Positions 4,373 to 50,648 of a DNA stretch of 64,000 bases are shown here, piece by piece. The position numbers were made by a program, and so were the translations under genes. The notes beneath the pieces were generated by a model. That model was not told the origin of the DNA and did no database searches. It saw only the letters and a program-made list of their open reading frames with translations. Position 1 is the stretch's first letter. Each line of letters starts with the position of its first letter. The stretch is from Caldilineales bacterium (GTDB lineage Bacteria > Chloroflexota > Anaerolineae > J102), in the NCBI GenBank assembly GCA_019695115.1, contig JAIBAP010000006.1, positions 1-64,000 on the forward strand, given 5' to 3'.

Positions 4373-6112
4373 CTATTCGAAACGGAGGCTGCCCAGCCGC
4401 ACGAACACACCGTCGGCGGACGGTTGCGCGGCCAACCACTCGCCCCGGAACGGTCTCACCCCCAGCCAAAGGGCGAATTCACCGCCGCTCGCCGGGTTGG
4501 GCGTCAGCGTGAACGTGTCGGCGATGACCTCCCCCGCCAGCCAGCGGTCGGTGCTGAAGCGACCCTGGGCCGGGCTATGGTCTCGCTCGGCCGCCAGCCA
4601 GCCATCTTGATGGACAAGGCGCACGACCGGGCGCAGATCCGCCGCCAGCGGCTGCCGCGCCCGCCAGAACAGCGTGATGGTCGCCGTTTCGCCAACGGCC
4701 AGGGGGTGGTCGGGCAGGGCGACGGCAACGAGATTGAAATCCTCGCCGAATGAGGCCAGGCTTTCGGCGGCGGTCAGGGAGGCGACGGCCGGCGGCGGCG
4801 CAAAGGCCGGGCGCAGCGCCAGCAGGAGGGCGGCCAGCCCGTAGCTCGTCATCACGATGATGCCTGCGGCCGCCAGTCGGCGGCGGGAGCGCAGCGCCTG
4901 GCCCCAACCGGCCAGCCCCACCCCCGCCCAGGCGCCCACGGCAGCGATCGCCGGCCACATGAGCCGCGCCTGGTCGGTGCCCAGGGCGATGGTCGAATAC
5001 TGCACGATCGAGGCTAGGGTCAGCAGGGGCGCCAGGGCGAGGAGCGCAACCGAGAAGCGCCAGCGATAGTCGGAAAGACGGCGACGCCAGAAGATCACGA
5101 TGCCGGCCAGCAAGAACAGGCTGACGGCAAGGGCGAGGAGATAGGCCCAGGGGGGCAAACGCACCTGGCCGATGGCGCCAAAACGCCCCCAGAAGTAGCC
5201 AAACAACCCTCTCGCCAGCCAGACCAGATCGGCAAAACCCAGCGGCGAGGTGCGCTGATCGACCGTGGCCCGCACCAAGTCCCAGCCCAGGGGATCGCCA
5301 TAGAGCCGCCAGTTGTGCACCAACCAGGGCGAGGCGACCAGTGTCCCTATCCCCAGGCTGATGGCCAGGTGGCCCAACCCAACCAGCCAGGCCCGCGCCC
5401 GCCGTCGTTCGGGCCAGAGTCCGCCCGCTGTGGCCAGGGCTGCCAGCGGCCACAGGGCCAGTGTCCCCACCTTCGACAGCAGCCCCAGCCCGAGAACCAG
5501 CCCCAGCCTGATGCTGCGGCCCAGGCCCGGTCCCCGCCAGATCATCGCCGCCATGATCACCAGGGCCAGGCTGCCAAAGGCGCCGGCGGCGTTGTCGTTG
5601 TTCACCGCCCCGCTGATGAACAGGAAGCCGGGCAGGGTGGCAAGAAAGGCGCCGGCAAGCAGGCCGGCCTCTGCCGCGCCTGCAAAGCAGTCACGACCAA
5701 GCCGCCACGCAGCCCAGACCGTGACCGCGCCCAGCAACACCGAAAGCAGCCTGCCCAGCCGCATCGCCAGCGCTCCCCCCTGCCAGGGCCATGCTTCCAC
5801 GGTGGTGTGGACGAAGAAGTTAGGCGGAGCGGCCGGGCCGAGAGGGAAGGCGTCGGGGTTGGAGCGCAGAAAATCGAAATCCATCCCCGTCCAAGCGGCC
5901 ACGGCGGCGACGGCGGCATGGTAGAGCGGCGGATGTTTGCCCTGGGTGATGGTGGGGCCTTGCGGCAGGCTGCGGTTCAGCGCCAGGTGGCGGGCATAGG
6001 CATAGTGGTCGGCCTCGTCAGGGGCCTCGCCCAAAGGCAATGACAGCGAATAGGCCGTTGCCAGGGCCAGGTAGAGGGCCAGGAGGAGGAGGAAGGATCG
6101 CCGCCCGCCCAT
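4373..6112 (-). CDS. GT39/DUF2142-like polytopic glycosyltransferase
   Basis: 579 aa integral membrane protein with about ten hydrophobic helices. The first loop holds GEAPDEADHYAYARHLA, with the acidic pair expected in GT-C enzymes, and KHPPLYHA resembles the donor-phosphate region of the PMT family. The last 120 residues are soluble and resemble the module in the neighbouring GT-C proteins (RWLAGEVIADTFTLTP). Its start abuts the stop of the upstream gene with no spacer, which indicates translational coupling in a two-gene operon. It converges on the SGNH hydrolase gene with a 27-bp gap. Donor and acceptor cannot be told from sequence. Confidence 0.7.
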   Translation of the reverse strand: MGGRRSFLLLLALYLALATAYSLSLPLGEAPDEADHYAYARHLALNRSLPQGPTITQGKHPPLYHAAVAAVAAWTGMDFDFLRSNPDAFPLGPAAPPNFFVHTTVEAWPWQGGALAMRLGRLLSVLLGAVTVWAAWRLGRDCFAGAAEAGLLAGAFLATLPGFLFISGAVNNDNAAGAFGSLALVIMAAMIWRGPGLGRSIRLGLVLGLGLLSKVGTLALWPLAALATAGGLWPERRRARAWLVGLGHLAISLGIGTLVASPWLVHNWRLYGDPLGWDLVRATVDQRTSPLGFADLVWLARGLFGYFWGRFGAIGQVRLPPWAYLLALAVSLFLLAGIVIFWRRRLSDYRWRFSVALLALAPLLTLASIVQYSTIALGTDQARLMWPAIAAVGAWAGVGLAGWGQALRSRRRLAAAGIIVMTSYGLAALLLALRPAFAPPPAVASLTAAESLASFGEDFNLVAVALPDHPLAVGETATITLFWRARQPLAADLRPVVRLVHQDGWLAAERDHSPAQGRFSTDRWLAGEVIADTFTLTPNPASGGEFALWLGVRPFRGEWLAAQPSADGVFVRLGSLRFE

Positions 6113-8389
6113 CTACTTTACCTCCACCGTCCCCAGTTCGATCCGGCCGTCGGCCGTGAGTGGCTCGACCGGCAGGTTGGCCGGGCCGGCGGCCGGGCCA
6201 GCGGCCGGGCCAGCGGCCGTCAGCTCGTACATCCCCACCTTCAAGCCGTAGTCGCCCGGCGCCACGCCCGTCGGCAGGGGGATGCGGTGGGTGTCGGCGA
6301 TGATCTCGCCGCGGCGCCAGCGGGTGGTGGGGGTGTAGCCGCCGACCGGGTCGCCATCGTGCTGAGCGATGACCTGGCCGCTGCCATCCAGCAGGTGGAC
6401 GAACACCTTGTAGTCCACACTGGTCTCGCGCAGGGCCAGCCAGTAGAGGGTCACATCCAGCGCCTCGGCCCCGCGTCCGGGTCGCGCCTCCCAGCCGATG
6501 ACCTGGGCGACATCCGCTATCTGGGCCTGGGCGGGCTGCGGGGCGCGGGTTTGGCGGCCGGCCCCCAGGCCGTTGAGCGCCAGGGCCAGGGCCAGGATCA
6601 GCAGCAGGAGGGCGGCGGCGCGCAGCATGCGGTTCTTCCTGCCCCAGCGCCAGGCCAGCCCCGCCCACAGCCCCGCCGATGCAAACGCAATCAGGGCGCC
6701 GGCACGCCGGGCAGGCGTCGAGCCGAAGCCCAGGGCGACCTGATGGCGGCCGGGCGGGATGTCCACCGTCACCAGGGCCAGTTCGCCGCTGGCATAGGTG
6801 GCGGCGGGGCGGTCATCGATGCGGGCGTTCCATCCCGGCTGATGGAATTGATGCAGACGCAACGACAGCGGCGCCGGCGTCTCGACCTCGAATTGCCAGC
6901 GATCCAGACCGACCGCAACCAGGCGCAGGCGCAGCGGCCCTGGCAGGGCGGGGCCATCGCTCGCGCCCTCGCGCCCGCGGCCAAGCGCCCATCGCTGCTC
7001 GCTCACCGCCGCCGGCAGGAATTCGCCCGTCCAGGTGGCGCCCACCTGCCCCAGGGCTGCATCTTCGTCCCACATTCGTTGCGGCGACCAGACCTCGCCG
7101 GCAGGTAAGTCCAGCGGTTGCAACGACAGCCGCCCCATGCCGGTGACGAGAGCCGCCACAGCGACCACGGCGACGACCAGCCCCGGCCGCAGGCGGGGCA
7201 GCAGCGGGATCAGCGCCGCCGCCGCCACGGCCAGGGCGACGGCGGTCAGGATCAGAAAGCGCCAGGGATATTGCAGTTGGCCCAGCACGGGCGTCAGAGG
7301 CCGCCAGAGCCAGAGCGAGGCGGTGGTGATCAGAAAGACGGTGACGGCGAAGAGGCCGAGATGGAAGGCGAGATGGGGCGTGTGCGCAGGCCGGGCGTCC
7401 CCTCGCCGGCGCCAGAGGAGCAGGAGCAAGACCACGAGCGGCAGGGTCGCCGCCAGCCAGCCCAGGGGATAGACGATGTAGCCGCCGGCGGGATAGAGGT
7501 AGGCCCACGACCGCTGCACCAGCGTCGCCAGGTCGAGCATGTGATGCTCGAAGCCGCGCGAGGCCCCTGCCGCCAACCCCACGCTGTTCCGCTCGACCAG
7601 CGCCGGCAGCCAATAGCCGGCGCTGAGTCCCAATGCCAGCGCCATCGACCCGCCGACCCCCGCCAGCAGTCGCCACTGCCTGCCGCTGGCGGCAAGCAGC
7701 AGGGCGTAGGCGAGTGCGACCGGCGCCATCAGCAGCGAACTGAGGTGGTGCACCAGGGCCAGCCCGGCCAAAGCAAGGCTTGCAGCCAGAAGCGGGGGGA
7801 GGGCGGCCGGCGATGGCAGGGGGCCGGTCGGCCGGCGGTCGGCAGCTTCGTTGGCGAAGGCGGCGGTATAGGCCCAGAGGATGAGCGGCGGGAAGACGAA
7901 GGCCAGGTGTTCGGGCAGGGCGCCGCGGATGGTGGCGTCGGCCAGATGATAGGGGAAGTAGGTGTAGACGGCGGCGGCAAGCAGCCCCGCCCACGGCCCC
8001 CAAAGCCGCCGGACATAGGCGAAGACGGCAAGCGCCGCCAGCAGGAAGCCGCACGCTATCGTGATCTCGGCGGCGGCGGCGGGCGAGAACCCCAACCTGC
8101 TCAGCAGCGCCCCCGGCCAATAGCCCGCCGGCGAGTAGAAGTTCAACACGGCCTGGCCGTAGCCAAAGCCGAACTGCGGAAACAGACGGGGGTGGAGCAC
8201 GCCCTGGCCCCAGGCCTCGGCCAGGGCCGCAAGACGGTAGACATGGAAGCGACCGTCATCGCTGGCCCAGAAACCCTGCCGCCACAGAGGCGCCAGCGCC
8301 GGCAAGGCCGCCACCAGCGCCAGGACAAGGGATGCCCGGCGTCGTCGAACGAGGGCTGCGGCTGGCGGCTTGGAAGGGTTTCGAATCAT
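6113..8389 (-). CDS. PTPS-related integral membrane protein, likely glycan assembly
   Basis: 758 aa. This is the large membrane family annotated as 6-pyruvoyl-tetrahydropterin synthase-related, which has a GT-C-like topology and no PTPS activity. A signal-anchor (about 21-40) precedes GFWASDDGRFHVYRL, and GYGQAVLNFYSP is typical of the family. Roughly 12 helices end near residue 600. The C-terminal soluble module (DYKVFVHLLDGSGQV, then GEIIADTH) recurs in the genes at 245 and 4373. Near the end a 12-bp repeat encodes AAGPAAGPAAGP. The gene lies first in an operon with the GT39-like gene and is transcribed away from the MBL hydrolase gene. Function is inferred from family and context. Confidence 0.7.
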   Translation of the reverse strand: MIRNPSKPPAAALVRRRRASLVLALVAALPALAPLWRQGFWASDDGRFHVYRLAALAEAWGQGVLHPRLFPQFGFGYGQAVLNFYSPAGYWPGALLSRLGFSPAAAAEITIACGFLLAALAVFAYVRRLWGPWAGLLAAAVYTYFPYHLADATIRGALPEHLAFVFPPLILWAYTAAFANEAADRRPTGPLPSPAALPPLLAASLALAGLALVHHLSSLLMAPVALAYALLLAASGRQWRLLAGVGGSMALALGLSAGYWLPALVERNSVGLAAGASRGFEHHMLDLATLVQRSWAYLYPAGGYIVYPLGWLAATLPLVVLLLLLWRRRGDARPAHTPHLAFHLGLFAVTVFLITTASLWLWRPLTPVLGQLQYPWRFLILTAVALAVAAAALIPLLPRLRPGLVVAVVAVAALVTGMGRLSLQPLDLPAGEVWSPQRMWDEDAALGQVGATWTGEFLPAAVSEQRWALGRGREGASDGPALPGPLRLRLVAVGLDRWQFEVETPAPLSLRLHQFHQPGWNARIDDRPAATYASGELALVTVDIPPGRHQVALGFGSTPARRAGALIAFASAGLWAGLAWRWGRKNRMLRAAALLLLILALALALNGLGAGRQTRAPQPAQAQIADVAQVIGWEARPGRGAEALDVTLYWLALRETSVDYKVFVHLLDGSGQVIAQHDGDPVGGYTPTTRWRRGEIIADTHRIPLPTGVAPGDYGLKVGMYELTAAGPAAGPAAGPANLPVEPLTADGRIELGTVEVK

Positions 8390-8390
8390 G

Positions 8391-8515
8391 GTGCGTGTTC
8401 CGTGTTCCGTGTTGCGTGTTCCGTGTTCCGTGAAGCGTAAGACGTGAGGGGTGAGGCGTGAAACGTGAGGCGTGTTCCGTGAAGCGTGGGGCGTGAGGGG
8501 TGAGGGGTAGTTCCG
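8391..8515. repeat. 7-bp repeat arrays of CGTGTTC and CGTGARG types
   Basis: Variants of CGTGTTC, CGTGAAG, CGTGAAA and CGTGAGG follow one another at a period of seven, immediately upstream of the minus-strand gene start at 8389. Confidence 0.85.
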
Positions 8516-37134: not shown

Positions 37135-38370
37135 TCAGGGCAAAATTTCCCGGAATCGTCGCCGATAGTGAGCGGCGATGTGCGGCCAGCCGAAGCGGGT
37201 CTCGATCAGTTGGCGACTGGCCTGACCCATGCGTTGGGTGCGAGCGGGGTCGCGGGCAAGCTCCAGCATCGCCGCAGCCAGGGCCTGGGCATCGCCTTCG
37301 GGCGTGATCAGGCCGTTGACGCCCGGCTCCACCACCAGGGTGTTCCCGGCCGTATCACTGGCGATGATCGCTTTGCCGCAGGCCATAGCATCCAACACCG
37401 TCACACCCAAGCCGGTGGCCGGTTTGCGCACATTGGGCATCACCAGGGCGTCGCAGGCGTTGTAGTAGGCGGGCATTTGGTCGGTGGGGATGTTGCCCAC
37501 CCAGTGCAGGTTGGCCAGCCCCAACGTTTGGGCTAGTTCCTGCCACTCCTGCCAGAGGTCGCCCTCGCCGACGAGGATGGTGTGGCAATCTCGACCGGCC
37601 TCGCCCAGCCCGGCCAGGGCCTGCAACAGGATGTCGAAACCCTTCTTGTAAACCATGCGCCCCACCGCCAGGAAGACGACGGCGCCGGTGGGGATGCCCA
37701 GGCGTTGGCGGAGCGCAGCCACACCACTGGGGTCAGGCCGCAGCCGGTTGGGATCGACGCCATAGATGATCAATTCGAATTTGGCCGGGTTGGCGCCCAG
37801 TTCCTCCACGGCCACCTCGCGCAACACCTCGGCGTTGGCCGTGATCAACGATGCCTGTTCAAAAGCGAAGCGCACCATCCGCCGGAACAGGGGGTTCTGC
37901 CCGGCCACCAGGGCATCGCTGCCGGGGATGCTGACCACCAGCGGCAGGCCCAGGCGACGGCTGACGACGGCGGCGATGAAACCATTGGGCAAGGCCCAAT
38001 GGGCGTGTAACACTTCGAGTCGTTGTCGGCGGACGACCTGGAAAGTGGTCTGGATGCCGCGGGCGAAGAGCAGCGGGCTGAGGGCGTAGGTGTTCAGCCG
38101 CATGCGCACGTCGGCTTCCATCGTCCGCATGTAGCCCAGCTTGTGCGCACTCGCTGACCAGGCATAACGATAGAGGTGAAGCCTGGGATTGGCCCCGGCC
38201 AGGGCTTGCGGCTGATAGGCGGCGTCGAACGGCGCAATCACATGCACTTCGTCGCCTTGCCGGGCCAGTTCTTCGCACAGTTGCTGGATGAAATAGCCGG
38301 AGAAGTCGCCGTCGAAGCGCGGGTAGTTGTGGGTGAGGACGCCGAGACGCATATTCCACATTTCACTCAT
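37135..38370 (-). CDS. Glycosyltransferase family 4
   Basis: 411 aa, GT-B fold. The N-terminal half starts LGVLTHNYPRFDGDFSGYFI, with the acceptor-side Gly-rich loop. VGRMVYKKGFDILLQAL opens the donor half. KPATGLGVTVLDAMACGKAII contains the conserved E-x7-E region, but Gly/Val-Thr-Val-Leu-Asp replaces the usual E-G-x-G-x3-E, so the donor contact is modified. It starts inside the stop of the antiporter gene (ATGA overlap). Likely adds a hexose to a lipid-linked glycan. Confidence 0.85.
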   Translation of the reverse strand: MSEMWNMRLGVLTHNYPRFDGDFSGYFIQQLCEELARQGDEVHVIAPFDAAYQPQALAGANPRLHLYRYAWSASAHKLGYMRTMEADVRMRLNTYALSPLLFARGIQTTFQVVRRQRLEVLHAHWALPNGFIAAVVSRRLGLPLVVSIPGSDALVAGQNPLFRRMVRFAFEQASLITANAEVLREVAVEELGANPAKFELIIYGVDPNRLRPDPSGVAALRQRLGIPTGAVVFLAVGRMVYKKGFDILLQALAGLGEAGRDCHTILVGEGDLWQEWQELAQTLGLANLHWVGNIPTDQMPAYYNACDALVMPNVRKPATGLGVTVLDAMACGKAIIASDTAGNTLVVEPGVNGLITPEGDAQALAAAMLELARDPARTQRMGQASRQLIETRFGWPHIAAHYRRRFREILP

Positions 38371-39815
38371 AGTTCGAACTTTTCGACAACACTATCAAAA
38401 GATCCTTTGTCAGATAAGACTAATAACGTGTCATTATCTTGCAAAAAAGTCCCCCCGTTTGGCAACACAAAGTCGTTATCTCTGGCAATGAGAACTACAA
38501 GAAAGTTTTCAGGCAGTCCCAGCTGAAAAATGGCTTTGCCACTCATGCCAGAGTCAACCGGCACGGATATTTCTTTTAGTTCACTTTTCCACCCACCTAC
38601 AGGGACATACTCGATCGGATAAACCCGTTTCGGGACGATTGGTGCATCAACTCGCAGCCACCTGGCCATGCGCGGCAATGAAGTTCCCTGTAATAAGATG
38701 GAGGTTAACACAACAAAAAAGACTACATTGAAGATCAAATTCGCTTGTTGAACCTGGGCAAGCAATGGAAAGGTTGCCAGGATAATGGGGGCTGCCCCAC
38801 GCAGACCGACCCACGAAATGAAGATCTTTTCTCTCAGGTCGAGCGCGCTTGAGAAAAGGCTGACAAAAACGCTGATGGGGCGAGCGATCAACATCAAACA
38901 CCCGGCAATTAGCAAGCCAACACCTACGATTGGCACGAGGCGCGAAGGAAAAACAAGCAGGCCCAGCGTCAGGAACATGGTTATTTGCATAATCCATGCC
39001 AGGCCATCGTGAAAACGCAGAAGACTCTTGTGATGCAAGAAGTCTTGTTGTCCCAGAACAATAGCAGCCAAATAGACGGCCAAGAATCCACTACCGCCAA
39101 CCAAGTCCGCCAATCCAAAGGTCAGAAAAACTAGCGATAATGTCAGTACAGGATAAAGACCTTCATAACCAAGCTTTGAGCGATTGATTAAGAATGACAT
39201 TACCCTTCCCATAGCATATCCAACAATCGCGCCTACGAGCATTTGTTGGATGAACAAGCCGATAAGATCTAATACAGATGAATCCGGCAGTGTGATCAAC
39301 TGTATCAGGCCGATGGTAAGAAATATCGCCATTGGGTCATTGCTACCTGACTCAAGTTCGAGCAATGGTTTGAGTTTCCCCTTGAGACCGATGCCTTGCG
39401 AGCGTAGGACCGAAAATACAGCCGCTGCATCGGTAGATGAAACTATCGAGCCAAGTAGCATGCCTTCGAGGAAGGAAAAATCAAGAAGTATTATTGCGAA
39501 AAGCCCAACTACTACTGCGGTAATGAGAACTCCCAAAGTAGATAGAAGCAAACCCTCCTTGAGAACAGGGCGAACTTCCTTCCATTCTGTATCAAGCCCA
39601 CCTGAGAATAGGATTAGGACTAAGGCAATAATCCCTATGTATTGCGCAAGTGCAGGGTCATCAAAATAGATATCGCCAAAACCATCGGACCCGGCCAACA
39701 TTCCCAAGACGAGAAAAAGTAGGAGGGCGGGGACCCCAAAACGATCGGATATTTTGCTAACAAGCACACTTATCAGCAATAAGACGGAAGCGCCGATCAC
39801 TACATATTCGTTCAT
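38367..39815 (-). CDS. CPA1-type K+/H+ (or Na+/H+) antiporter, NhaP2-like
   Basis: 482 aa. Twelve or so helices (Na_H_Exchanger domain, residues 5-385), with VSSTDAAAVFSVLRSQG and ELESGSNDP as ion-pathway motifs. A C-terminal TrkA_C-like regulatory domain follows (ISVPVDSGMSGKAIFQL). This is the NhaP2/CvrA architecture. Its third-codon positions look clearly richer in A/T than those of its neighbours, hinting at acquisition by transfer. It is followed in the same direction by the GT4 gene. Confidence 0.88.
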   Translation of the reverse strand: MNEYVVIGASVLLLISVLVSKISDRFGVPALLLFLVLGMLAGSDGFGDIYFDDPALAQYIGIIALVLILFSGGLDTEWKEVRPVLKEGLLLSTLGVLITAVVVGLFAIILLDFSFLEGMLLGSIVSSTDAAAVFSVLRSQGIGLKGKLKPLLELESGSNDPMAIFLTIGLIQLITLPDSSVLDLIGLFIQQMLVGAIVGYAMGRVMSFLINRSKLGYEGLYPVLTLSLVFLTFGLADLVGGSGFLAVYLAAIVLGQQDFLHHKSLLRFHDGLAWIMQITMFLTLGLLVFPSRLVPIVGVGLLIAGCLMLIARPISVFVSLFSSALDLREKIFISWVGLRGAAPIILATFPLLAQVQQANLIFNVVFFVVLTSILLQGTSLPRMARWLRVDAPIVPKRVYPIEYVPVGGWKSELKEISVPVDSGMSGKAIFQLGLPENFLVVLIARDNDFVLPNGGTFLQDNDTLLVLSDKGSFDSVVEKFEL

Positions 39816-39860: not shown

Positions 39861-40859
39861 CTAACTTCCCAATCGGCTGACCTCCTGCTCTCCCAATTCA
39901 TTTGTCTCCTTGTCCACATGCCGGCCCATCTCTCGATCCACTTCTCCCAACCGTTCTTCCATCTCGCTCAGGCGGTCGCCCTGGGCGACGATGAGTTCGG
40001 CCAGGAAGCCGACCAGGAAGAAGAGTAGCCCGGCCAGGGCCAGGAAGAGGGCGGCCCAGAAGACCGGCCGTTTCTGCGTCTGTTCTTGGAAGAACCAGAG
40101 ATAGGTCAGGAAGAGGGTGGTGAAGCCGGCGATGGCGAAGGAGGTCAGGCCGAGGCCGCCGAAGAAGCGCATGGGCCGCGAGCTGAACGTGAGCAAGAAG
40201 CGGATGACGATGACATCGAGCAGCGAGATAGGGATGCGGCTGAAGCCAAAATGCGAGCGCCCGGCCTTGCGCGGATACCAGTTCGTCGGCGTCTCACCCA
40301 CCCGAAAACCCTGATCGGCGGCGATGTGGAGCAGGAAGCGGTGCCAGTCCGAGCGCAAGGGCGGCAAGGCGGCGATGACCTCGCGGCGAAAGCCCTTGAT
40401 CCAGTTGGCATCGTGGACGCGCACGGTGAACAGACGCCGGCTGACGACGTTGTAGATGCCGGAGGCGAGTTGTTTGCCGTCGTCGCGGCCCTGCCGCCAG
40501 CCCGAAACCACGTCGTAGCCCTCCAGCAGCTTGTGATAGAGCTTGGGCACATCCTCGGCCGGGTCCGATTCCAGGTCGGCGGGGAGGAAGAGGATGTAAT
40601 CGCCCTGGGCGGCGCGGAAGCCAGAGCGCAGGGCGGCGGTGAGGCCGCGGTTACGGCGGTGGCGGATGAGACGCAGCCAGGGATATGCGGCCTGCAGGCT
40701 CGCTGCCTGATCTCCCGTCCCATCCGTGCTGCCATCATCCACCAACACCAATTCGCCCGCCACCCCCAGGGCAGCAAAGGCCTGGGCCGTACGGGCGACT
40801 AATTCGTCGATGTTCTCGGCTTCGTTGTGGGCCGGGATGAGGACGGAGAGGGTGGGCAT
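39861..40859 (-). CDS. Glycosyltransferase family 2 with membrane tail (DPM1/GtrB-like)
   Basis: 332 aa. SVLIPAHNEAENIDEL starts the GT-A fold, VDDGSTDGT holds the donor Asp, and PADLESDP is the metal-site region. HDANWIKGFRRE is usual in this branch. Two helices near the C-terminus (about 230-255 and 265-290) anchor it, with a charged coiled-coil tail. Such enzymes make polyprenyl-phosphate sugars, the donors needed by GT-C proteins like those at 245-8389. Confidence 0.88.
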   Translation of the reverse strand: MPTLSVLIPAHNEAENIDELVARTAQAFAALGVAGELVLVDDGSTDGTGDQAASLQAAYPWLRLIRHRRNRGLTAALRSGFRAAQGDYILFLPADLESDPAEDVPKLYHKLLEGYDVVSGWRQGRDDGKQLASGIYNVVSRRLFTVRVHDANWIKGFRREVIAALPPLRSDWHRFLLHIAADQGFRVGETPTNWYPRKAGRSHFGFSRIPISLLDVIVIRFLLTFSSRPMRFFGGLGLTSFAIAGFTTLFLTYLWFFQEQTQKRPVFWAALFLALAGLLFFLVGFLAELIVAQGDRLSEMEERLGEVDREMGRHVDKETNELGEQEVSRLGS

Positions 40860-41046: not shown

Positions 41047-42144
41047 CTAGAGGGCGGCCCGGATGGTGGCGACCACTTCATCCTGCTGCTCGTCGGTCAT
41101 TTCGGCGTAGAGCGGGAGGGTGAGGACGTCGCCGGCGGCCTGTTCGGAGATGGGGAAGCTGCCGGGTTCGAGTTCGAGGTGGCGGTAGGCTGGTTGCAGG
41201 TGGAGGGGGATGGGGTAGTGGACGCCGGCGCCGATCCCGGCGGCTTGCAGGGCCTTGAGCAGTTCGTCGCGCCTGGCGGTGCGGATGACGTAGCAGTGGT
41301 AAACCGGCTCGGTTTCGGCCAGGTGGTGGGGGGTGACAAGCGGTAAGTCGGCCAGCAGTTCATCGTAGCGGGCGGCCAGCCGGCGGCGACCGGCGTTCCA
41401 CTCGTCCAGATGCGGCAGTTTGGCCGACAAGATGGCGGCCTGGATGCCGTCGAGACGGTGGCCATAGCCCAGTTCGGCGTGTTCGTATTTGGTGGTGCGG
41501 CCGTGGTCGCGCAACGAGTGCACGCGCGCGGCCAGGTGGTCGTCGTCGGTGAGGACGGCGCCGCCATCGCCATAGCAGCCCAGGTTTTTGCTGGGGTAGA
41601 ACGAGAAGCAGGCGGCGTCGCCCAGGCTGCCGGCGCGCTTGCCTTTGTAGCGGCTGCCGTGGGCCTGGGCGGCGTCTTCGATCACCAACAGCTGGCGCCG
41701 TTTGGCGATGGCGTCGATGGCAGCCATGTCGGCGGGCTGGCCGAACAGATGCACAGGCATGATCGCCCTGGTGTAGGGCGTCAGGGCGGCTTCGATGCGG
41801 GCGGGGTCGATGTTGTAGGTGACGGGGTCGATGTCGACGAAGACGGGACGGGCGCCGGTCTGCGAGATGGCCTCGCCGGTGGCGAAGAAGGTGAAGGGGG
41901 TGGTGATGACCTCGTCGCCGGGGCCGATGCCGTAGCCGGCCAGGGTGAGGAAGAGGGCCGAGGTGCCGCTGGAAACGCCCAGCGCGTGTTTGACGCCGCA
42001 GTAGTCGGCGAAGGCTTGCTCGAAGTCCGACACTTCTTTGCCCATGATGAAGGCGGTGTTTTCGATCACGCGCGTGATGGCGGCGTCGATGGTCGGACGG
42101 ATGGTCTCGTATTGAGCTTTGAGATCGACAAGTTGAATGGACAT
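41047..42144 (-). CDS. DegT/DnrJ/EryC1/StrS aminotransferase
   Basis: 365 aa PLP enzyme that aminates keto-sugar nucleotides. CFSFYPSKNLGCYGDGGA contains the Schiff-base Lys. The start IQLVDLKAQYETIRPTID and DDAAQAHGSRYKG-type centre (here VIEDAAQAHGSRYKGK) are standard. The gene shares the strand with the nearby glycosyltransferases, so it probably makes an amino sugar for a surface glycan. The substrate is not readable from sequence. Confidence 0.92.
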   Translation of the reverse strand: MSIQLVDLKAQYETIRPTIDAAITRVIENTAFIMGKEVSDFEQAFADYCGVKHALGVSSGTSALFLTLAGYGIGPGDEVITTPFTFFATGEAISQTGARPVFVDIDPVTYNIDPARIEAALTPYTRAIMPVHLFGQPADMAAIDAIAKRRQLLVIEDAAQAHGSRYKGKRAGSLGDAACFSFYPSKNLGCYGDGGAVLTDDDHLAARVHSLRDHGRTTKYEHAELGYGHRLDGIQAAILSAKLPHLDEWNAGRRRLAARYDELLADLPLVTPHHLAETEPVYHCYVIRTARRDELLKALQAAGIGAGVHYPIPLHLQPAYRHLELEPGSFPISEQAAGDVLTLPLYAEMTDEQQDEVVATIRAAL

Positions 42145-42240: not shown

Positions 42241-43569
42241 CTATCCGGGCGCCGGGGCGGGGGCCAATCGGGAGGGAGGGCGTTCGTTCAGGCCGTCGAG
42301 CCGGCCCTCCAGGTCGGCGATCTTGCGCAGGTGGAAGTCGATCTCGTTTTGGAGGGAGAGCGGGACAGTGAGGCCGTAGTTGGCGGCCTGGACCTCGAGC
42401 CGCGCCAGATTGACACGGAATGTCTGCAATTGTTGCTGCCAGAAGGCCTTTTCTTGTTGGTGGCCGGTCGAAGCGACTTCCTTGACCAGTGAATCGGCGA
42501 TCTCGGCATCGTCGATGGGCAGGGAGTCGGCACGGGTTTGCAGCCATTGCGCAAAGAAGGTGTTGCCAATGCCAACCTGACCATCGCTGATGCGAGTATA
42601 CCCCAGGCGGGTGAGGGCGTAAAGATAGAGATGGGCGTCGGCAGGGCGCAGGTGGAGGGCCGCTGCCAGCCCGGCCTCGTCTCTGGCCCGGCCGGGGTCG
42701 TCGGAAGCCAGGTGCAGGAGGATGCAGCGTTCGCTTGGGGAGAGGTGTTTGTAGGTGATCTCCCAGAGGCCGTTCAGGGTGGCGTCGGTTTGCAGGTCGT
42801 GTTCGTCGGGATGGCGGAGGCTGTTGTTTTCTTGATAGAGCTTGCGGCACAGCCACTGGACGAGATAGGGGTGGTGGTTGGTATGATACTGGATGACGGC
42901 GAGGGTTTTGGCGTCGACATCGACGCGCTGGCCCTGCGATTGGCGGATGAGTGCCTCCGACTCCACCGGCTCCATCCCCGACAGGTTGCGGGGCGAGAAG
43001 TCCTGGAGGAACGAGGAGGTGAGCCAGTGCTGGGTGAGCGTCTGGATGCGGGAGAAGACTTTGGTCGAGGTGAGCACCACGCGCAGGTTCGGCTGGCGCT
43101 GGAAGACGAGACGCAGCCGCCGCAGGATCATGTCCTGATCTGCGCCGATGGTGAGCAGGGCCTCTGGCTCGTCGATGAGGAGCAGGATCTGGCGGTTGTG
43201 GGCGGCGGCGGCCAGCGAGACGGTCTGGAGGGCCTGGCGAAAGTCCTGGTTGGCGAGGGCGTTGACCTCGACGCCGATTTCGTGCAGGGCCGACGCCCGC
43301 TCCTCCAGGCTGTAGTTCAGTTCGCTGTTGAGGTCATCGGCGCTCTGGCAGGCTTGCATGTCCCAATAGAGGGGCACGAATTCGGGGCCGGCGTCGGCCA
43401 TGAGTTGGCGCAAGAGCGAGGTTTTGCCCACGCGCCGGGTGCCAACCACCCATAGCTGGCGGTTGGGGTCGTAGAGGAGGTTGAAGCGCAGGCCGATGTG
43501 GCCGTAGTAGGCGGCGCCATTGACCCAGCTGCCGACGACATAAGGGTTGTGATGGGGGGACAGGGGCAT
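42241..43569 (-). CDS. Stand-alone P-loop ATPase of the NPYV-G family
   Basis: 442 aa. HHNPYVVGSWVNGAAYYG is followed by VVGTRRVGKTSLLRQL (Walker A, residues 43-51) and ILLLIDEPEALL (Walker B). A winged-helix-like region (about 290-370) follows, with SPSERCILLHLASD. A C-terminal coiled coil (about 375-430) ends in a Pro/Ala tail. It looks like a STAND/AAA-like regulator (AAA_35 type). The ATG at 43569 has AGGAG upstream. It lies 56 bp after the propeller-NTPase gene, whose NTPase half has the same NPYV-G start, so the two are likely paralogues in one operon. Confidence 0.7.
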   Translation of the reverse strand: MPLSPHHNPYVVGSWVNGAAYYGHIGLRFNLLYDPNRQLWVVGTRRVGKTSLLRQLMADAGPEFVPLYWDMQACQSADDLNSELNYSLEERASALHEIGVEVNALANQDFRQALQTVSLAAAAHNRQILLLIDEPEALLTIGADQDMILRRLRLVFQRQPNLRVVLTSTKVFSRIQTLTQHWLTSSFLQDFSPRNLSGMEPVESEALIRQSQGQRVDVDAKTLAVIQYHTNHHPYLVQWLCRKLYQENNSLRHPDEHDLQTDATLNGLWEITYKHLSPSERCILLHLASDDPGRARDEAGLAAALHLRPADAHLYLYALTRLGYTRISDGQVGIGNTFFAQWLQTRADSLPIDDAEIADSLVKEVASTGHQQEKAFWQQQLQTFRVNLARLEVQAANYGLTVPLSLQNEIDFHLRKIADLEGRLDGLNERPPSRLAPAPAPG

Positions 43570-43625
43570 CGTGAGCACTCCTGGGGGTGTGGAGTGGCGG
43601 GGGAGATAGAGAGGGGAGGCTGGAA

Positions 43626-46600
43626 TCAGGTTTTTTCTGCTTGCATAATGCGTTCGTAGGCCCGCTGGACGTCGCTCATCTGGATGCGCTGACGTTTGTC
43701 GTCGAGCATGCAGTTGACGGCTTCGAGGCAGATCTGTTGGATGCGGTGCGGGCGGCCCTGGCTCTGGGCAAAGACATAGTGGATGGCGTCTTTGTCCCAG
43801 CGATAGAATTTGGTCACCGGCTCGCGCATCAGGCGTTCGGCTTCGGGGCGGTCGAAGGGGGGCATTTGCATCTCGATGAACATGTTGTACCACGGCGACT
43901 CGACCCGATCCCAGGCTTTGCTGATGTTGACGCCGGCAACGACGACGCCCACGTTTTGGGCAAAGGTGTCTTGCAGGATACGGCGGAACTGCTGTTGGGT
44001 CAGCGTGTTGTAGGTGTTCATGATGTCGGCTTCATCCAGCAGGAGGATGAGCCGCGGCTGTTGGCCGAAATGCTGGCGCAAGTGGTCGAGCAGGGTGCGC
44101 AGGTCGCGGCGGAAATGACGATCTTCGTAGGCTTCGCCGCTGTCGAGATGCGAGTAGAAGAGGTCCTGGCTGCTCGGCAGGTCGGGCAACTGGTGCTGCA
44201 CGGCATCGAGGGCGGCCTCCATCAGGCGGTGGAAAAACTGCGACTCCGGTGTGCCTTCGAGATCGACGAAGATGGGCAGGAAGCGGTAGCCGCCGTCCAC
44301 TTTGCCATCCAATCGCTGCAAAAGCTGGTAAAGCAGCGATGTCTTGCCGATGCGCCGTTCGCCGTGGATCATGACGCTGTTTTTGTGCAGCGTCGATTCG
44401 ATTTCGCGCAGGACTTGCGTCCGGCCATAGAACATCGTCTCTTCGCGGATCGGGCTGCCGGCGACATAGGGGTTGAAGCGACGTTCGACCGCGTGGCGCG
44501 TCATGGCTTGCCGCGCCAGGGTGCTCCAGACGGCATAGGCGCCCAGGGCGGCCAGGGCGCCCAGGATGGAGACGATCACGAAGACGATTTCTGCCCGCAC
44601 CTGACCGACAACAGGCAACTGAATCGTCAACGGACGGCGTTTCACGACCAGTTGCAGGTTGACGGGCGCCGAGTAGTTCAGCCCGCCATCGCGTCCCTGC
44701 ACCTCGAAGGTGTAGACGCCTTCGGGCAGAGGGGGATAGGTGACGAGCGGGCGGCGCGTGGGCTGCCAGTCGGCGTCGTAGCCGGCCAGCCGGTAGAGAT
44801 AGAATAGCTCTTCGGTAGCCGTCAGCAGGTCGCGGCCTTCCCATTCGATGCGGATGGCGGCGTCGGGCGAGGCCTCGGCCCGCTGGTCGATGGGTGCGAC
44901 GCCGTTGAGGGTGGTGACGCCGACGCTGGGCGGCGTGCGGTCGGGCGAGAACTGCGCCAGCCCTTCGGCAGCGGCCAGATAGAGGCCATCGTTGCCATCC
45001 GGATGCAAAGCCTTGACCCGGCCAATGTTCAACCCGTTGGCCACACTGAAGTTCTGCCAGGAGCGGCCATCGAACTGGCTGAGGCCGCTGACGGTGCCAA
45101 ACCAGACGCGCGAGCTGGCCGGATCGGCCCACACGGCGTCGAGGCCCGGCGCCAACAAGCCCTCGCGGGGGGTGAAGGTGGTCCAGACGCCATTCTTCAG
45201 CCTGCTGGCGCCCTCGCCCCAGACCGCAAACCACAGGCTCCCATCCTGGCCCTCAGAGACGGCGTTGACATCAAGCCCTGCCAGGCCATCCGCGGGCGTG
45301 AAGCTTTGCCAGGTCCCGTTTTCCAGCATGGATACGCCTGCTTCGGTCGTAACCCAAAGCCGGCCGCGGCTGTCGGCCAGCAAGTCCTGCACCTTGTCGG
45401 AGATCAACCCCTCCCCAGGGGTGACATGCTGCCAGTCGGCCCCGTCCCAACGATCGAGGCCGCGGCCATAGACGCCGAACCACATGGCTCCATCGGGCGT
45501 CTGCGTGATGGCGGAAACATTGTTGCCGCTGAGTCCGTCGTCGCTGGTCAGGCGATCGACCCGCCTGCTGCCGGGATCGACGCGGATGGCGCCGCCATTA
45601 CTAGCGCCGAACCACACGGCGCCGTCGGCATCGATGAAGGCGGTCTCGATGAAAGATAGGTTGGGAAAAGCAGGGAAACCGACATCCTGGGGATGCTGCC
45701 AGCGATTGTCGGCGAAGACATGGACGCCATCGCCGAAAGAACCGACCCACAAACGCCCCACCCCATCCTTGACGATGGCTTCGATGCGAGCGGTTGGGGC
45801 GCCATCTTGCCGGCGCCACAGGCGCCAGCTTTGGGGATCGAAGCGGGTGATGCCGGCGACCGTGCCAAACCAATAGACGCCGTCCTGGTCGCGGGAAATG
45901 CTGGTGACGAAATTGGCCGCCAGGCCATCCTCGATCGTGAACCTTTCCCAGGTCCCTGCGCGCCAGTGGGCGATGCCACCCCCGTTCTCGCCCACCCAGA
46001 GGTCGTCGTGATCGATCTCGACCAGGGCCAGGACGCTGCTACTCGGCAGATTATTTACTTCGTGTAGCCATTCGGCGCCGGTAGCGGACAGATGGGCGAT
46101 GCCCTCACCGTCGACGCTCACCCACAGGTCGCCATCCTGGCTTGGCGCCAGGACGCTGATGGTCGTCGTGATCGCCTGACCATTGTGCAAGAGGGGTTGG
46201 GACTGCCATGCCTGCCCATCCCAGCGGTAGAGTGACGAGCCGCCGGCCAGCCAGATGCGGTCTTGGCTGTCTACGGCCAGCGCTGAGATGGTGGCGGACG
46301 GGCTTGCCGCCATTTGCTCCCATGTCTGGCTCTGGCCGCGGCGACGAAAGAGGCCGGTGCTGCTGGCGGCGAGGAGGTCGCCGGCGCTGGTTTGGGCCAG
46401 AGCAACGAAGGCCGTCGCCGCCAGCCCGTCGTCTTCGCCCTGCAACGTCCAGGCTCCGTCGTGCAGTTGCGCCACCCCTCGCGCCGTCGTCGCCCAGAGG
46501 TCGCCCTGCCCATCCACCAACAGCGATTTCACCGCTCCCTGGGGCAGGCCCTCCGCCTGGCCAAACGACTGCCAGGCGCCATCGAAACGCAAAATGCCGC

Positions 46601-46802
46601 GATCGGTGCCAAACCAGAGCGCGGCATCGCCAGTCTGTGCGGATGAAAAGAACCAGTTGCCTATGGCGCCGTCGAACTGATCGAACGTGCGCCAGGCGTC
46701 GAGATAGCTTTGGGCTTGCGCCGAGCGGGATACAACCGCAATGCCCAGACAAACAGCCAAACAGAAAGCAAGGGAGAAAATGGGGGAAAAGTGCTTTCTC
46801 AT
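43626..46802 (-). CDS. Membrane sensor: 14-blade propeller + Y_Y_Y + TM + P-loop NTPase
   Basis: 1058 aa. Signal peptide (about 1-31, ending AQA), then about 14 Reg_prop blades to about residue 630 (ALWFGTDRGILRFDG, RLWVGSFGDGVHVF, SLWFAVWGEGASRL), enough for two seven-bladed propellers. A Y_Y_Y-like domain (about 650-735) and one membrane helix (about 742-765) follow. In hybrid two-component sensors a histidine kinase comes next. Here residues 774-1058 start NPYVAGSPIREETMFYGR and contain GERRIGKTSLLYQL (Walker A) and ILLLDEADIM (Walker B). No H-box was found. The propeller should sense a ligand outside and the NTPase act inside. The ATG at 46802 is chosen over an upstream TTG. Confidence 0.8.
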   Translation of the reverse strand: MRKHFSPIFSLAFCLAVCLGIAVVSRSAQAQSYLDAWRTFDQFDGAIGNWFFSSAQTGDAALWFGTDRGILRFDGAWQSFGQAEGLPQGAVKSLLVDGQGDLWATTARGVAQLHDGAWTLQGEDDGLAATAFVALAQTSAGDLLAASSTGLFRRRGQSQTWEQMAASPSATISALAVDSQDRIWLAGGSSLYRWDGQAWQSQPLLHNGQAITTTISVLAPSQDGDLWVSVDGEGIAHLSATGAEWLHEVNNLPSSSVLALVEIDHDDLWVGENGGGIAHWRAGTWERFTIEDGLAANFVTSISRDQDGVYWFGTVAGITRFDPQSWRLWRRQDGAPTARIEAIVKDGVGRLWVGSFGDGVHVFADNRWQHPQDVGFPAFPNLSFIETAFIDADGAVWFGASNGGAIRVDPGSRRVDRLTSDDGLSGNNVSAITQTPDGAMWFGVYGRGLDRWDGADWQHVTPGEGLISDKVQDLLADSRGRLWVTTEAGVSMLENGTWQSFTPADGLAGLDVNAVSEGQDGSLWFAVWGEGASRLKNGVWTTFTPREGLLAPGLDAVWADPASSRVWFGTVSGLSQFDGRSWQNFSVANGLNIGRVKALHPDGNDGLYLAAAEGLAQFSPDRTPPSVGVTTLNGVAPIDQRAEASPDAAIRIEWEGRDLLTATEELFYLYRLAGYDADWQPTRRPLVTYPPLPEGVYTFEVQGRDGGLNYSAPVNLQLVVKRRPLTIQLPVVGQVRAEIVFVIVSILGALAALGAYAVWSTLARQAMTRHAVERRFNPYVAGSPIREETMFYGRTQVLREIESTLHKNSVMIHGERRIGKTSLLYQLLQRLDGKVDGGYRFLPIFVDLEGTPESQFFHRLMEAALDAVQHQLPDLPSSQDLFYSHLDSGEAYEDRHFRRDLRTLLDHLRQHFGQQPRLILLLDEADIMNTYNTLTQQQFRRILQDTFAQNVGVVVAGVNISKAWDRVESPWYNMFIEMQMPPFDRPEAERLMREPVTKFYRWDKDAIHYVFAQSQGRPHRIQQICLEAVNCMLDDKRQRIQMSDVQRAYERIMQAEKT

Positions 46803-46905: not shown

Positions 46906-46934
46906 ACTATAGCAACGTACAGAATGATTGTCAA
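46906..46934 (-). promoter_or_regulatory. Consensus promoter of the propeller-NTPase gene
   Basis: On the minus strand TTGACA (46934-46929), 17-bp spacer, TATAGT (46911-46906). This is one of the best sigma-70 matches in the window. The leader is about 95 bases. Confidence 0.75.
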
Positions 46935-47068: not shown

Positions 47069-47263
47069 CGTGAAGCGTGAAACGTGAAGCGTGAAACGTG
47101 AAGCGTGAAGCGTGAAACGTGAAGCGTGAAGCGTGAAACGTGAAGCGTGAAGCGTGAAACGTGAAACGTGAAGCGTGAAGCGTGAAGCGTGAAGCGTGAA
47201 GCGTGAAGCGTGAAACGTGAAGCGTGAAGCGTGAAACGTGAAGCGTGAAGCGTGAAACGTGAG
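47069..47263. repeat. Long CGTGAAG/CGTGAAA heptamer array
   Basis: About 27 complete units at strict period seven, with A or G at the last position in an irregular order. With the related array at 47382-47448 it explains most of the 46935-47481 gap. Confidence 0.95.
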
Positions 47264-47381: not shown

Positions 47382-47448
47382 ACGTTTCACACCTCACGCC
47401 CCACGGAACACGCCCCACGGAACACGCCCCACGGAACACGGAACACGC
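47382..47448. repeat. 7-bp repeats (ACGCCTC, ACGGAAC, GCCCCAC types)
   Basis: Heptamers run toward the 3' end of the gene at 47482; complement-type units of the array at 47069-47263 appear here on the opposite strand. Confidence 0.85.
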
Positions 47449-47481
47449 AACACCCCCCCACCCCGTTGCTCTGCAAACCGT

Positions 47482-48212: not shown

Positions 48213-48272
48213 GCAGAATCAACAGTCAACAATCAACAATCAACAATCAACAATCAACGGTCAGCGGTCAAT
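48213..48272. repeat. CAACAAT/CGGTCAG-type 7-bp array
   Basis: CAACAGT, CAACAAT and CGGTCAG units at period seven upstream of the zinc-ribbon membrane protein. Confidence 0.85.
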
Positions 48273-48632: not shown

Positions 48633-48746
48633 GGAAAGGTAGTAGACGAGTAGATACGGTGAGAGATGAGGCCGGTCGAGTTTAGTGGGTCGTCGAGGGA
48701 GGCTGGAAGTGGGTCGCGCCCCGGCTTGATGGCTCGATGGAAGTGG

Positions 48747-48775
48747 TTGACTTCGTTTCAAGAATTCTCTAGAAT
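48747..48775 (+). promoter_or_regulatory. hicB promoter
   Basis: TTGACT (48747-48752), 17-bp spacer, TAGAAT (48770-48775), close to consensus. Confidence 0.65.
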
Positions 48776-48836
48776 GCACACAAGTGATGCGGAGTTCGCG
48801 GTTATTTTCTCGATTTCGACTTGCACGGTGCAGACA

Positions 48837-48995
48837 ATGAAACTCAGAGTCATCGTTCACGAGGCCGAAGAAGGCGGTTACTGGGCCGAAGTGCCCGCCA
48901 TTCCTGGCTGCGCCACTCAGGGCGATAGCTTCGAAGAGTTGTTGGCGAATCTTTACGAAGCGATCGAGGGCTGTCTGGCTGTCGATGTCGAATAG
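48837..48995 (+). CDS. hicB: HicB-type antitoxin, short
   Basis: 52 aa. VIVHEAEEGGYWAEVPAIPG is the N-terminal HicB fold and GDSFEELLANLYEAIEGCL the following helix. Many HicB antitoxins go on for a DNA-binding domain, missing here. The ATG has no Shine-Dalgarno. It precedes a remnant of hicA in a different frame, so the pair is no longer functional as a toxin-antitoxin module, although the antitoxin could still be made. Confidence 0.75.
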   Translation: MKLRVIVHEAEEGGYWAEVPAIPGCATQGDSFEELLANLYEAIEGCLAVDVE

Positions 48996-49093
48996 CGCGT
49001 ATATCTGTGCCCATACACGGCAATGAGCCGCTCAAAATCGGTCTACTAAAGCATTTGTTGAAAACCGCAGGGATCGAAGAGGGTGAGATTTAG
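48995..49093 (+). pseudogene. hicA: hicA toxin remnant (C-terminal 30 codons)
   Basis: Reading from 49001, RISVPIHGNEPLKIGLL and then LLKTAGIEEGEI is the typical C-terminal end of HicA, with TAG at 49091-49093. The first half, including the start, catalytic His and dsRBD-like fold, is absent. It directly follows the hicB stop, so the middle of the hicBA pair has been deleted. Confidence 0.75.
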
Positions 49094-49493
49094 GCAGGGG
49101 GGGAGACGGAGGGACGCAGGGAGGGGGATAGAGATCGAACAACTTATCGCTACTGACCACAGAAATCTCTTCTACCAGCGATTGAGCAATGATCAAACGA
49201 TCGAAAGGATCGCGATGATGGAACGGCAGGTTCACAACCTTTGCAGTGTGGGACACAGAGATGGGTAAGAGCACGAAGTCATTGGTCAGCAACTGGTCAT
49301 ACCAACACGTTGCAAACGACGCTGGCAGTGCATATTTCCCCAGGCTGATTTTGATGGCAATCTCCCAAAGGCTTGCCGGACTGACGAAGACCACCGTATC
49401 GATGGCAACAATGTTTTTCCGGGCTTTTTTACTCAAGCGAGGATCATCCAACACAAACCAAAGCAATGTCTGCGTATCCAACAAGAGATTCAT
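49032..49493 (-). CDS. vapC: VapC-type PIN-domain toxin with foreign C-terminus
   Basis: 153 aa. NLLLDTQTLLWFVLDD supplies the first acidic residue, SLWEIAIK the second, DPFDRLIIAQ the third and VSSDKLFDLY the fourth region, so the PIN nuclease core is intact. It should cut tRNA or rRNA when unbound. Normal PIN proteins end a few residues after the last block, whereas here reading continues through PPPCVPPSPPLP from a G-rich repeat and antisense to the hicA remnant. It overlaps vapB by four bases (ATGA). Confidence 0.8.
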   Translation of the reverse strand: MNLLLDTQTLLWFVLDDPRLSKKARKNIVAIDTVVFVSPASLWEIAIKISLGKYALPASFATCWYDQLLTNDFVLLPISVSHTAKVVNLPFHHRDPFDRLIIAQSLVEEISVVSSDKLFDLYPPPCVPPSPPLPKSHPLRSLRFSTNALVDRF

Positions 49494-50520: not shown

Positions 50521-50648
50521 TTGGATTTGAGATGTGAGGCGTGAAACGTGAGGCGTGAGGCGTGAGGCGTGAGGTGTGAGGTGTGTTCCGTGTTCCGTGT
50601 TCCGTGGGGCGGAAGGCTTGAGGCGTGTTTCGTGTTCCGTGGGGCGGA
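50521..50648. repeat. 7-bp repeats upstream of the cytochrome gene
   Basis: CGTGAGG, GTGAAAC, CGTGTTC and related units at period seven between the cupin and cytochrome genes. Confidence 0.85.

Follow-up and report, generated by a model that had tools for sequence, protein, structure and literature searches.

A beta-propeller sensor fused to a STAND-type ATPase and encoded beside a soluble partner ATPase: a candidate transmembrane relay in Chloroflexota

Organisation of the locus

The window analysed here is the whole 64,000-nucleotide stretch at the start of contig JAIBAP010000006.1 from a Caldilineales bacterium. Two neighbouring genes on its minus strand encode an extracytoplasmic sensor joined to an ATPase (gene 1) and a soluble ATPase (gene 2), with gene 2 lying downstream of gene 1 across a gap of 56 bp (43570-43625). 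Further downstream, on the same strand, follow an aminotransferase gene, two glycosyltransferase genes and an exchanger gene. The features are:

46906..46934, minus strand: sigma-70-like promoter, TTGACA-17-TATAGT with TG ahead of the -10 box, 11 of 12 consensus positions matched
43626..46802, minus strand: gene 1, sensor-ATPase of 1058 aa, ATG at 46802
46713..46802, minus strand: signal peptide, residues about 1-30 (model helix 7-27; AQA before the mature end)
44928..46712, minus strand: two seven-bladed Reg_prop beta-propellers, 14 blades, residues 31-625 (Pfam, model, blade motifs, Foldseek)
44643..44927, minus strand: Y_Y_Y domain, residues 626-720 (Pfam PF07495 and model)
44532..44594, minus strand: single transmembrane helix, residues 737-757 (AlphaFold2 model; basic residues after it)
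43629..44477, minus strand: cytosolic STAND-type ATPase of gene 1, residues 776-1058 (Pfam, model, alignment)
42241..43569, minus strand: gene 2, soluble partner STAND ATPase of 442 aa
42286..42495, minus strand: C-terminal helical hairpin module of gene 2, residues 359-428 (model, alignments)
41047..42144, minus strand: DegT/DnrJ/EryC1 sugar aminotransferase, 96 bp past gene 2 (Pfam E 1e-132)
39861..40859, minus strand: family 2 glycosyltransferase (GT2), probable operon member
38367..39815, minus strand: Na+/H+ exchanger with TrkA_C, probable operon member
37135..38370, minus strand: glycosyltransferase group 1/family 4 (GT4), probable operon member

When the coordinates were re-derived, the placement of the two genes and of the gap given in a preliminary description of this DNA proved correct, and the near-consensus promoter that it had placed ahead of gene 1 was recovered; the consensus scan returned two promoter-type sites in the scanned region, against 0.8 expected. 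The full-length architecture of gene 1 was found again in dozens of species and is therefore not a product of chance, which rules out a gene-fusion artefact.

The sensor half of gene 1 is of the HTCS type

The AlphaFold2 model of the gene 1 product (pLDDT 86), from which the signal helix and the transmembrane helix were read, also contains the propellers, the Y_Y_Y domain and the ATPase. Both Reg_prop (E 2.3e-33) and Y_Y_Y (E 7.2e-9) passed their Pfam cut-offs. Fourteen blade-core motifs, spaced by about 42 residues (at approximately 63, 103, 142, 183, 226, 269, 311, 352, 397, 441, 483, 526, 567 and 607), have matching strands in the model; most were found by a script pattern and the remainder by eye at the same spacing. 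Pfam, model and motif count thus agree with the signal peptide, about 14 Reg_prop blades, Y_Y_Y-like domain and single membrane helix described previously. Gene 1 is the only carrier of Reg_prop or Y_Y_Y in this genome at the thresholds used.

The best Foldseek matches of the sensor half were the Bacteroides hybrid sensors (HTCS) BT4663 (E 1e-43), BT3049 and BT4673, with PorZ more distant (E 2e-25). As in these HTCS proteins, the extracytoplasmic part of gene 1 consists of two seven-bladed propellers followed by Y_Y_Y, after which comes a transmembrane helix; the alignments span some 770 columns at about 20% identity. PorZ likewise has a double propeller with a C-terminal beta domain and binds glycan (PMC8545088), and the NCBIfam match to it was weak; unlike gene 1, it is a surface protein without an ATPase. 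Considering that BT4663 binds disaccharides (PMC5121618) and that PorZ binds anionic LPS as part of a secretion pathway (PMC8545088), a glycan ligand is likely for gene 1 as well. It would probably belong to the cell envelope or come from the surroundings.

The systems differ in what the sensor is attached to: the output of the Bacteroides HTCS is a histidine kinase with a receiver, whereas in the Chloroflexota pair a STAND ATPase and its partner ATPase take that place. The earlier statement that such a propeller/Y_Y_Y part normally feeds hybrid kinases holds as far as the kinship with HTCS goes, but other outputs have been reported too, namely GGDEF for Reg_prop sensors (PMC6637768) and a DNA-binding domain for transmembrane transcription regulators with Y_Y_Y (PMC10269533), so that an output other than a kinase has precedents. 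In both of these the output differs from the ATPase pair found here, and searches of an open-access collection, outside which most subscription papers fall, returned no report of Reg_prop combined with STAND.

Among the 42 Chloroflexota propeller relatives scanned, all contained Reg_prop and none a kinase or receiver domain, and, unlike hybrid two-component systems, neither they nor gene 1 unite a histidine kinase with a receiver and an HTH output in one chain. A kinase domain hidden in gene 1 was accordingly rejected by the domain scans. Y_Y_Y passed E 1e-3 in 9 of the 42, indicating that this domain diverges.

Both ATPases are STAND-type and carry intact motifs

Searching the C-terminal region of gene 1 with HMMs, as had been proposed, gave AAA_16, AAA_22 and nSTAND1 at or above the curated Pfam cut-offs; gene 2 passed the cut-off for AAA_22. 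Neither gene contains a histidine-kinase or receiver domain according to Pfam, so that this refuting finding named in the preliminary description did not come about. In gene 1, Walker A lies at residues 814-821, Walker B at 919-924 and a candidate Arg finger at R940; the corresponding elements of gene 2 are at 43-50, 129-134 and R153. The gene 2 model (pLDDT 91) comprises an AAA+ core, a helical domain, a winged helix and the long helical hairpin, with no membrane helix; in the models, the gene 1 ATPase stops after the nucleotide-binding domain (NBD) and the helical domain, so that the winged helix of gene 2 has no counterpart in it.

The fold of gene 2 is nearest to the archaeal STAND-like ATPases 2qen and 2fna, and then to ORC/Cdc6, CED-4, Apaf-1, plant NLRs and MalT (8bob), which places it in the STAND/ORC group by fold; a PDB sequence search with the ATPase domain returned chance matches only. 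Walker A, a Walker B of the form hhhhDE, GxP in the helical domain and a related fold, by which the STAND class is recognised, were all found. Across 84 pairs, every sequence of both ATPases has GKT in Walker A and DE in Walker B; the shared arginine at the finger position is conserved in 100% of the gene 1 family (R940) and 90% of the gene 2 family (R153), and the GxP proline in 100% and 96%, respectively. nSTAND1 matched 18 of 45 partners in Pfam. The lack of histidine-kinase and receiver domains in the relatives and the fold of the partner bear out the earlier suggestion that a STAND-type switch stands in place of a kinase.

The partner ends in a hairpin module that recurs in the genome

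The hairpin ends the Chloroflexota partners aligned. Pfam contains no family for it, and its identification with a known Pfam domain was thereby rejected. It occurs on four other contigs of the same genome, giving five copies in total, and its carriers include one SIR2-like protein and one protein that adjoins a NACHT-FGE protein. An effector-associated domain (EAD) would be a small non-enzymatic module present several times in a genome, with one copy on an effector and another on a core component; for the hairpin, five copies and a SIR2-like carrier were observed, and we read it as a putative adaptor.

Two of the regions concerned can be described separately. The NACHT-FGE protein lies at 4526-8434 (minus strand) of locus L063, and its neighbour ends in a hairpin of the gene 2 type. 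A cluster on contig C94 of genome G000 (L064, L236), which looks like a conflict island, encodes a Ser/Thr kinase with a forkhead-associated-like end, two ATPases, an nSTAND1-like membrane protein and a SIR2-like protein with the hairpin.

The two genes are inherited together

Co-occurrence in relatives, on which the preliminary description had made its proposal depend, is strong. In a survey of 298 genomes of the class, with orthologue score cut-offs set by eye on the listed bit scores, 50 genomes had both genes, 2 gene 1 only, 6 gene 2 only and 240 neither (Fisher p 2e-47 for joint presence and absence, phylogeny ignored). A scan of named genomes and further regions yielded 84 loci with both genes, and gene 2 lies directly downstream in 79 of these; the two are divergent in four, all gammaproteobacterial, and far apart in one. 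In a joint tree, the two ATPases form separate clades (167 of 168 tips, support 0.994) and are thus old paralogues that have been inherited together. Pairwise distances of the two proteins correlate with r 0.95-0.96, a congruence that linkage alone could produce. In family f1 the pair is single-copy, present in most genomes and vertical-looking in its divergence, and in genus g4 of this family the two genes are on different contigs. Where the genes are separated, both are usually still retained.

Two departures from the pattern were observed. Genome G199, from the same genus as the window and 98% complete, has neither gene, which suggests joint loss. In two genomes of family f16, partner ATPases at L062 (1495-2838, plus strand) and L082 (2813-4201, minus strand) occur without a detectable sensor-ATPase, and their Walker B carries DH or DN, not the otherwise invariant DE.

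Sensors and outputs are exchanged between lineages

The pairing was seen in three phyla, Chloroflexota, Acidobacteriota and Gammaproteobacteria, with differing sensors and outputs. A cultured strain, Sulfidibacter corallicola, also has the pair (L221). Outside the membrane, the relatives from the latter two (n=27; ATPase identity about 35-43%) have mainly TPR and, ahead of the transmembrane helix, a beta-rich stretch; among the families listed for them there was no histidine-kinase or response-regulator domain. At one locus (L075) GAF domains take the place of the propeller sensor, and at another (L068) two copies of the hairpin module form the outside part.

The partners vary as well. A Ser/Thr kinase (Pkinase, with HRD and DFG intact) is present in 6 of 45, including some from Acidobacteriota, and an OmpR-type DNA-binding domain (Trans_reg_C) in 4 of 45, from Gammaproteobacteria. 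TPR sensors and kinase or OmpR-type partners in these lineages lead us to read the pair as a sensor-ATPase/output-ATPase relay; against this reading, Chloroflexota partners carry neither a kinase nor a DNA-binding domain. The preliminary description had missed the age and cross-phylum spread of the pair, the swapping of sensors and outputs from one lineage to another, and the glycan-biosynthesis neighbourhood in which it usually sits in Chloroflexota.

Glycan-biosynthesis genes adjoin the pair in most Chloroflexota loci

Among the best PDB matches of the aminotransferase were WbpE and QdtB, with similar scores; a strict assignment to WbpE was rejected, since QdtB and QdtC score equally or better. 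Glycan-biosynthesis genes do lie beside the pair, as expected of a member of a WbpE/QdtB-like sugar-nucleotide operon. In 24 non-redundant Chloroflexota loci with enough sequence, DegT lay within 1.5 kb in 15 and GT2 within 5 kb in 17, while the genome of the window has only five full-length DegT matches. Upstream of the pair, several families have genes for a Gfo/Idh/MocA dehydrogenase and for a hexapeptide acyltransferase, as is typical of 3-acetamido-sugar nucleotides. Within the same survey, part of the Caldilineaceae had no glycan genes beside the pair, so the context is not universal. In genus f1/g4, gene 2 remains beside DegT and gene 1 is elsewhere. Since the Chloroflexota pair lies mostly beside an aminotransferase and glycosyltransferases, its signal probably concerns a cell-surface glycan.

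At six f1/g4 loci (L091, L093, L095, L097, L111, L113), an immune-inhibitor-A-like MAM protein precedes the partner ATPase, at the place of the sensor gene.

Relationship to known tandem and single STAND systems

For the ATPases, the closest published parallel is the nSTAND2 group of two-gene conflict operons, predicted to act against invaders (Kaur et al. 2021, PMC8195603), in which one NTPase is eroded, GT4 or HEPN effectors occur, and a hetero-multimer with an Arg finger has been proposed. As in these operons, two STAND NTPase genes adjoin each other, and the partner family aligns with nSTAND2-type partners (hhalign E 4.6e-34) over 331 columns that take in the winged helix as well as the NBD and the helical domain. 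nSTAND2 itself matched 5 of 45 partners at 1e-3, and gene 2 gave no match to that model at E up to 1. In contrast to those operons, the Walker motifs are intact in both ATPases and a transmembrane sensor is present, and domain scans of gene 1, gene 2, the 42 relatives and the 45 partners found no GT4 or HEPN effector domain. Two intact sites, the transmembrane sensor and the lack of an effector together mark the pair as a related variant and not as a member of the nSTAND2 operons as defined. The class also contains more distantly related tandem pairs, in which a large protein with WD40, HEAT, TPR or TCAD9 parts is accompanied by a second ATPase; the latter is in several cases of the nSTAND2 type and once carries EAD7.

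MalT and other STAND regulators have the same switch of NBD, helical domain and winged helix. Unlike MalT, a single soluble protein, the pair has an extracytoplasmic sensor and divides its switch between two proteins.

Proposed relay and alternative explanations

Domain anatomy, motif conservation, co-occurrence, adjacency, congruent divergence and the replacement of sensors and outputs were all observed, and on this basis we favour, with some reserve, a two-protein transmembrane system in which a sensor-ATPase and an output-ATPase relay an outside, probably glycan, signal. The propellers and Y_Y_Y would bind the ligand outside the membrane, and the resulting change would pass through the single membrane helix to the attached ATPase, which would switch its nucleotide state and engage the soluble partner. 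The two may then form a mixed oligomer, as the preliminary description had suggested and as we also consider a plausible hypothesis. The partner would carry the output, by way of the adaptor hairpin in Chloroflexota, the Ser/Thr kinase in some Acidobacteriota or the OmpR-type domain in Gammaproteobacteria. In the lineage of the window, the likely target would be surface-glycan synthesis, encoded by the genes downstream on the same strand. Taken together, this points to transmembrane signalling without histidine phosphotransfer. The separated genes of f1/g4 and the six genomes with gene 2 alone count against such a relay, as do the divergence of Y_Y_Y and the Caldilineaceae that have no glycan genes next to the pair.

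Three other explanations were weighed. The pair could be an ATP-driven conflict system for defence or cell death, its sensor detecting an invader or damage and its STAND proteins triggering an effector recruited through the hairpin. The distant tandem relatives, nSTAND2 proteins with EAD7, TCAD9 or WD40 partners that belong to a published class of predicted systems (PMC8195603), speak for this, as do the hairpins on the SIR2-like protein and on the neighbour of the NACHT-FGE protein in the same genome. Neither gene has an effector domain, however, the sensor faces outside, a PADLOC anti-phage search gave weak partial matches only, and the single-copy, widespread and vertical-looking pair of f1 is unlike patchy, mobile conflict loci; we therefore regard a conflict role as unlikely. 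We are similarly doubtful that the ATPases perform mechanical or assembly work for polymerising or exporting glycans, a scheme in which the propeller would check the glycan and nothing would be relayed to gene expression or kinases. The adjoining aminotransferase, glycosyltransferases, dehydrogenase and acyltransferase would suit such a machine, and so would the LPS-binding fold relative PorZ in its secretion pathway (PMC8545088), but the fold is that of switches and ORC rather than of known export motors, and kinase- or OmpR-fused partners, as well as relatives outside a glycan neighbourhood, fit signalling better. Finally, genes 1 and 2 could be functionally independent, given that linkage can preserve adjacency and that the genes are on different contigs in f1/g4. 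The usual retention of both genes where they are separated, a joint distribution that is far from random in a test ignoring phylogeny, and the recurrence of the pairing in three phyla with different sensors and outputs make this highly improbable.

Beyond the relay itself, we put forward, as a tentative proposal that we consider somewhat less likely than not, an undescribed signalling class in Chloroflexota, Acidobacteriota and Gammaproteobacteria. In it a sensor-ATPase would stand for the histidine kinase and an output-ATPase for the response regulator, lineages would differ through swaps of sensors (propeller/Y_Y_Y, TPR) and of outputs (kinase, OmpR-type, hairpin), and the origin would lie in immunity-related tandem STAND systems. 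The STAND ATPases, to which immune switches of animals and plants belong, have mostly been described as single-protein regulators or as cytosolic switches in immunity and cell death. A pair with an outside sensor on one member and a kinase or DNA-binding output on the other would be an ATPase-based counterpart of two-component systems and, if the relay is real, would show immunity-like switches turning into receptors. A tandem with two intact active sites also makes the hetero-oligomeric switching proposed for tandem STAND pairs directly testable.

Other features of the window

Upstream of the pair, short intergenic arrays of 7-bp repeats occupy 47069-47262, 47402-47458, 48217-48258 and 50534-50585, the longest consisting of 27.7 copies of CGTGAAG at 91% identity. 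Among them, a small HicB-like ORF (48666-48995, plus strand) lies beside a PIN-like ORF (49032-49493, minus strand); as read from their translations, the two are perhaps a toxin-antitoxin-type pair.
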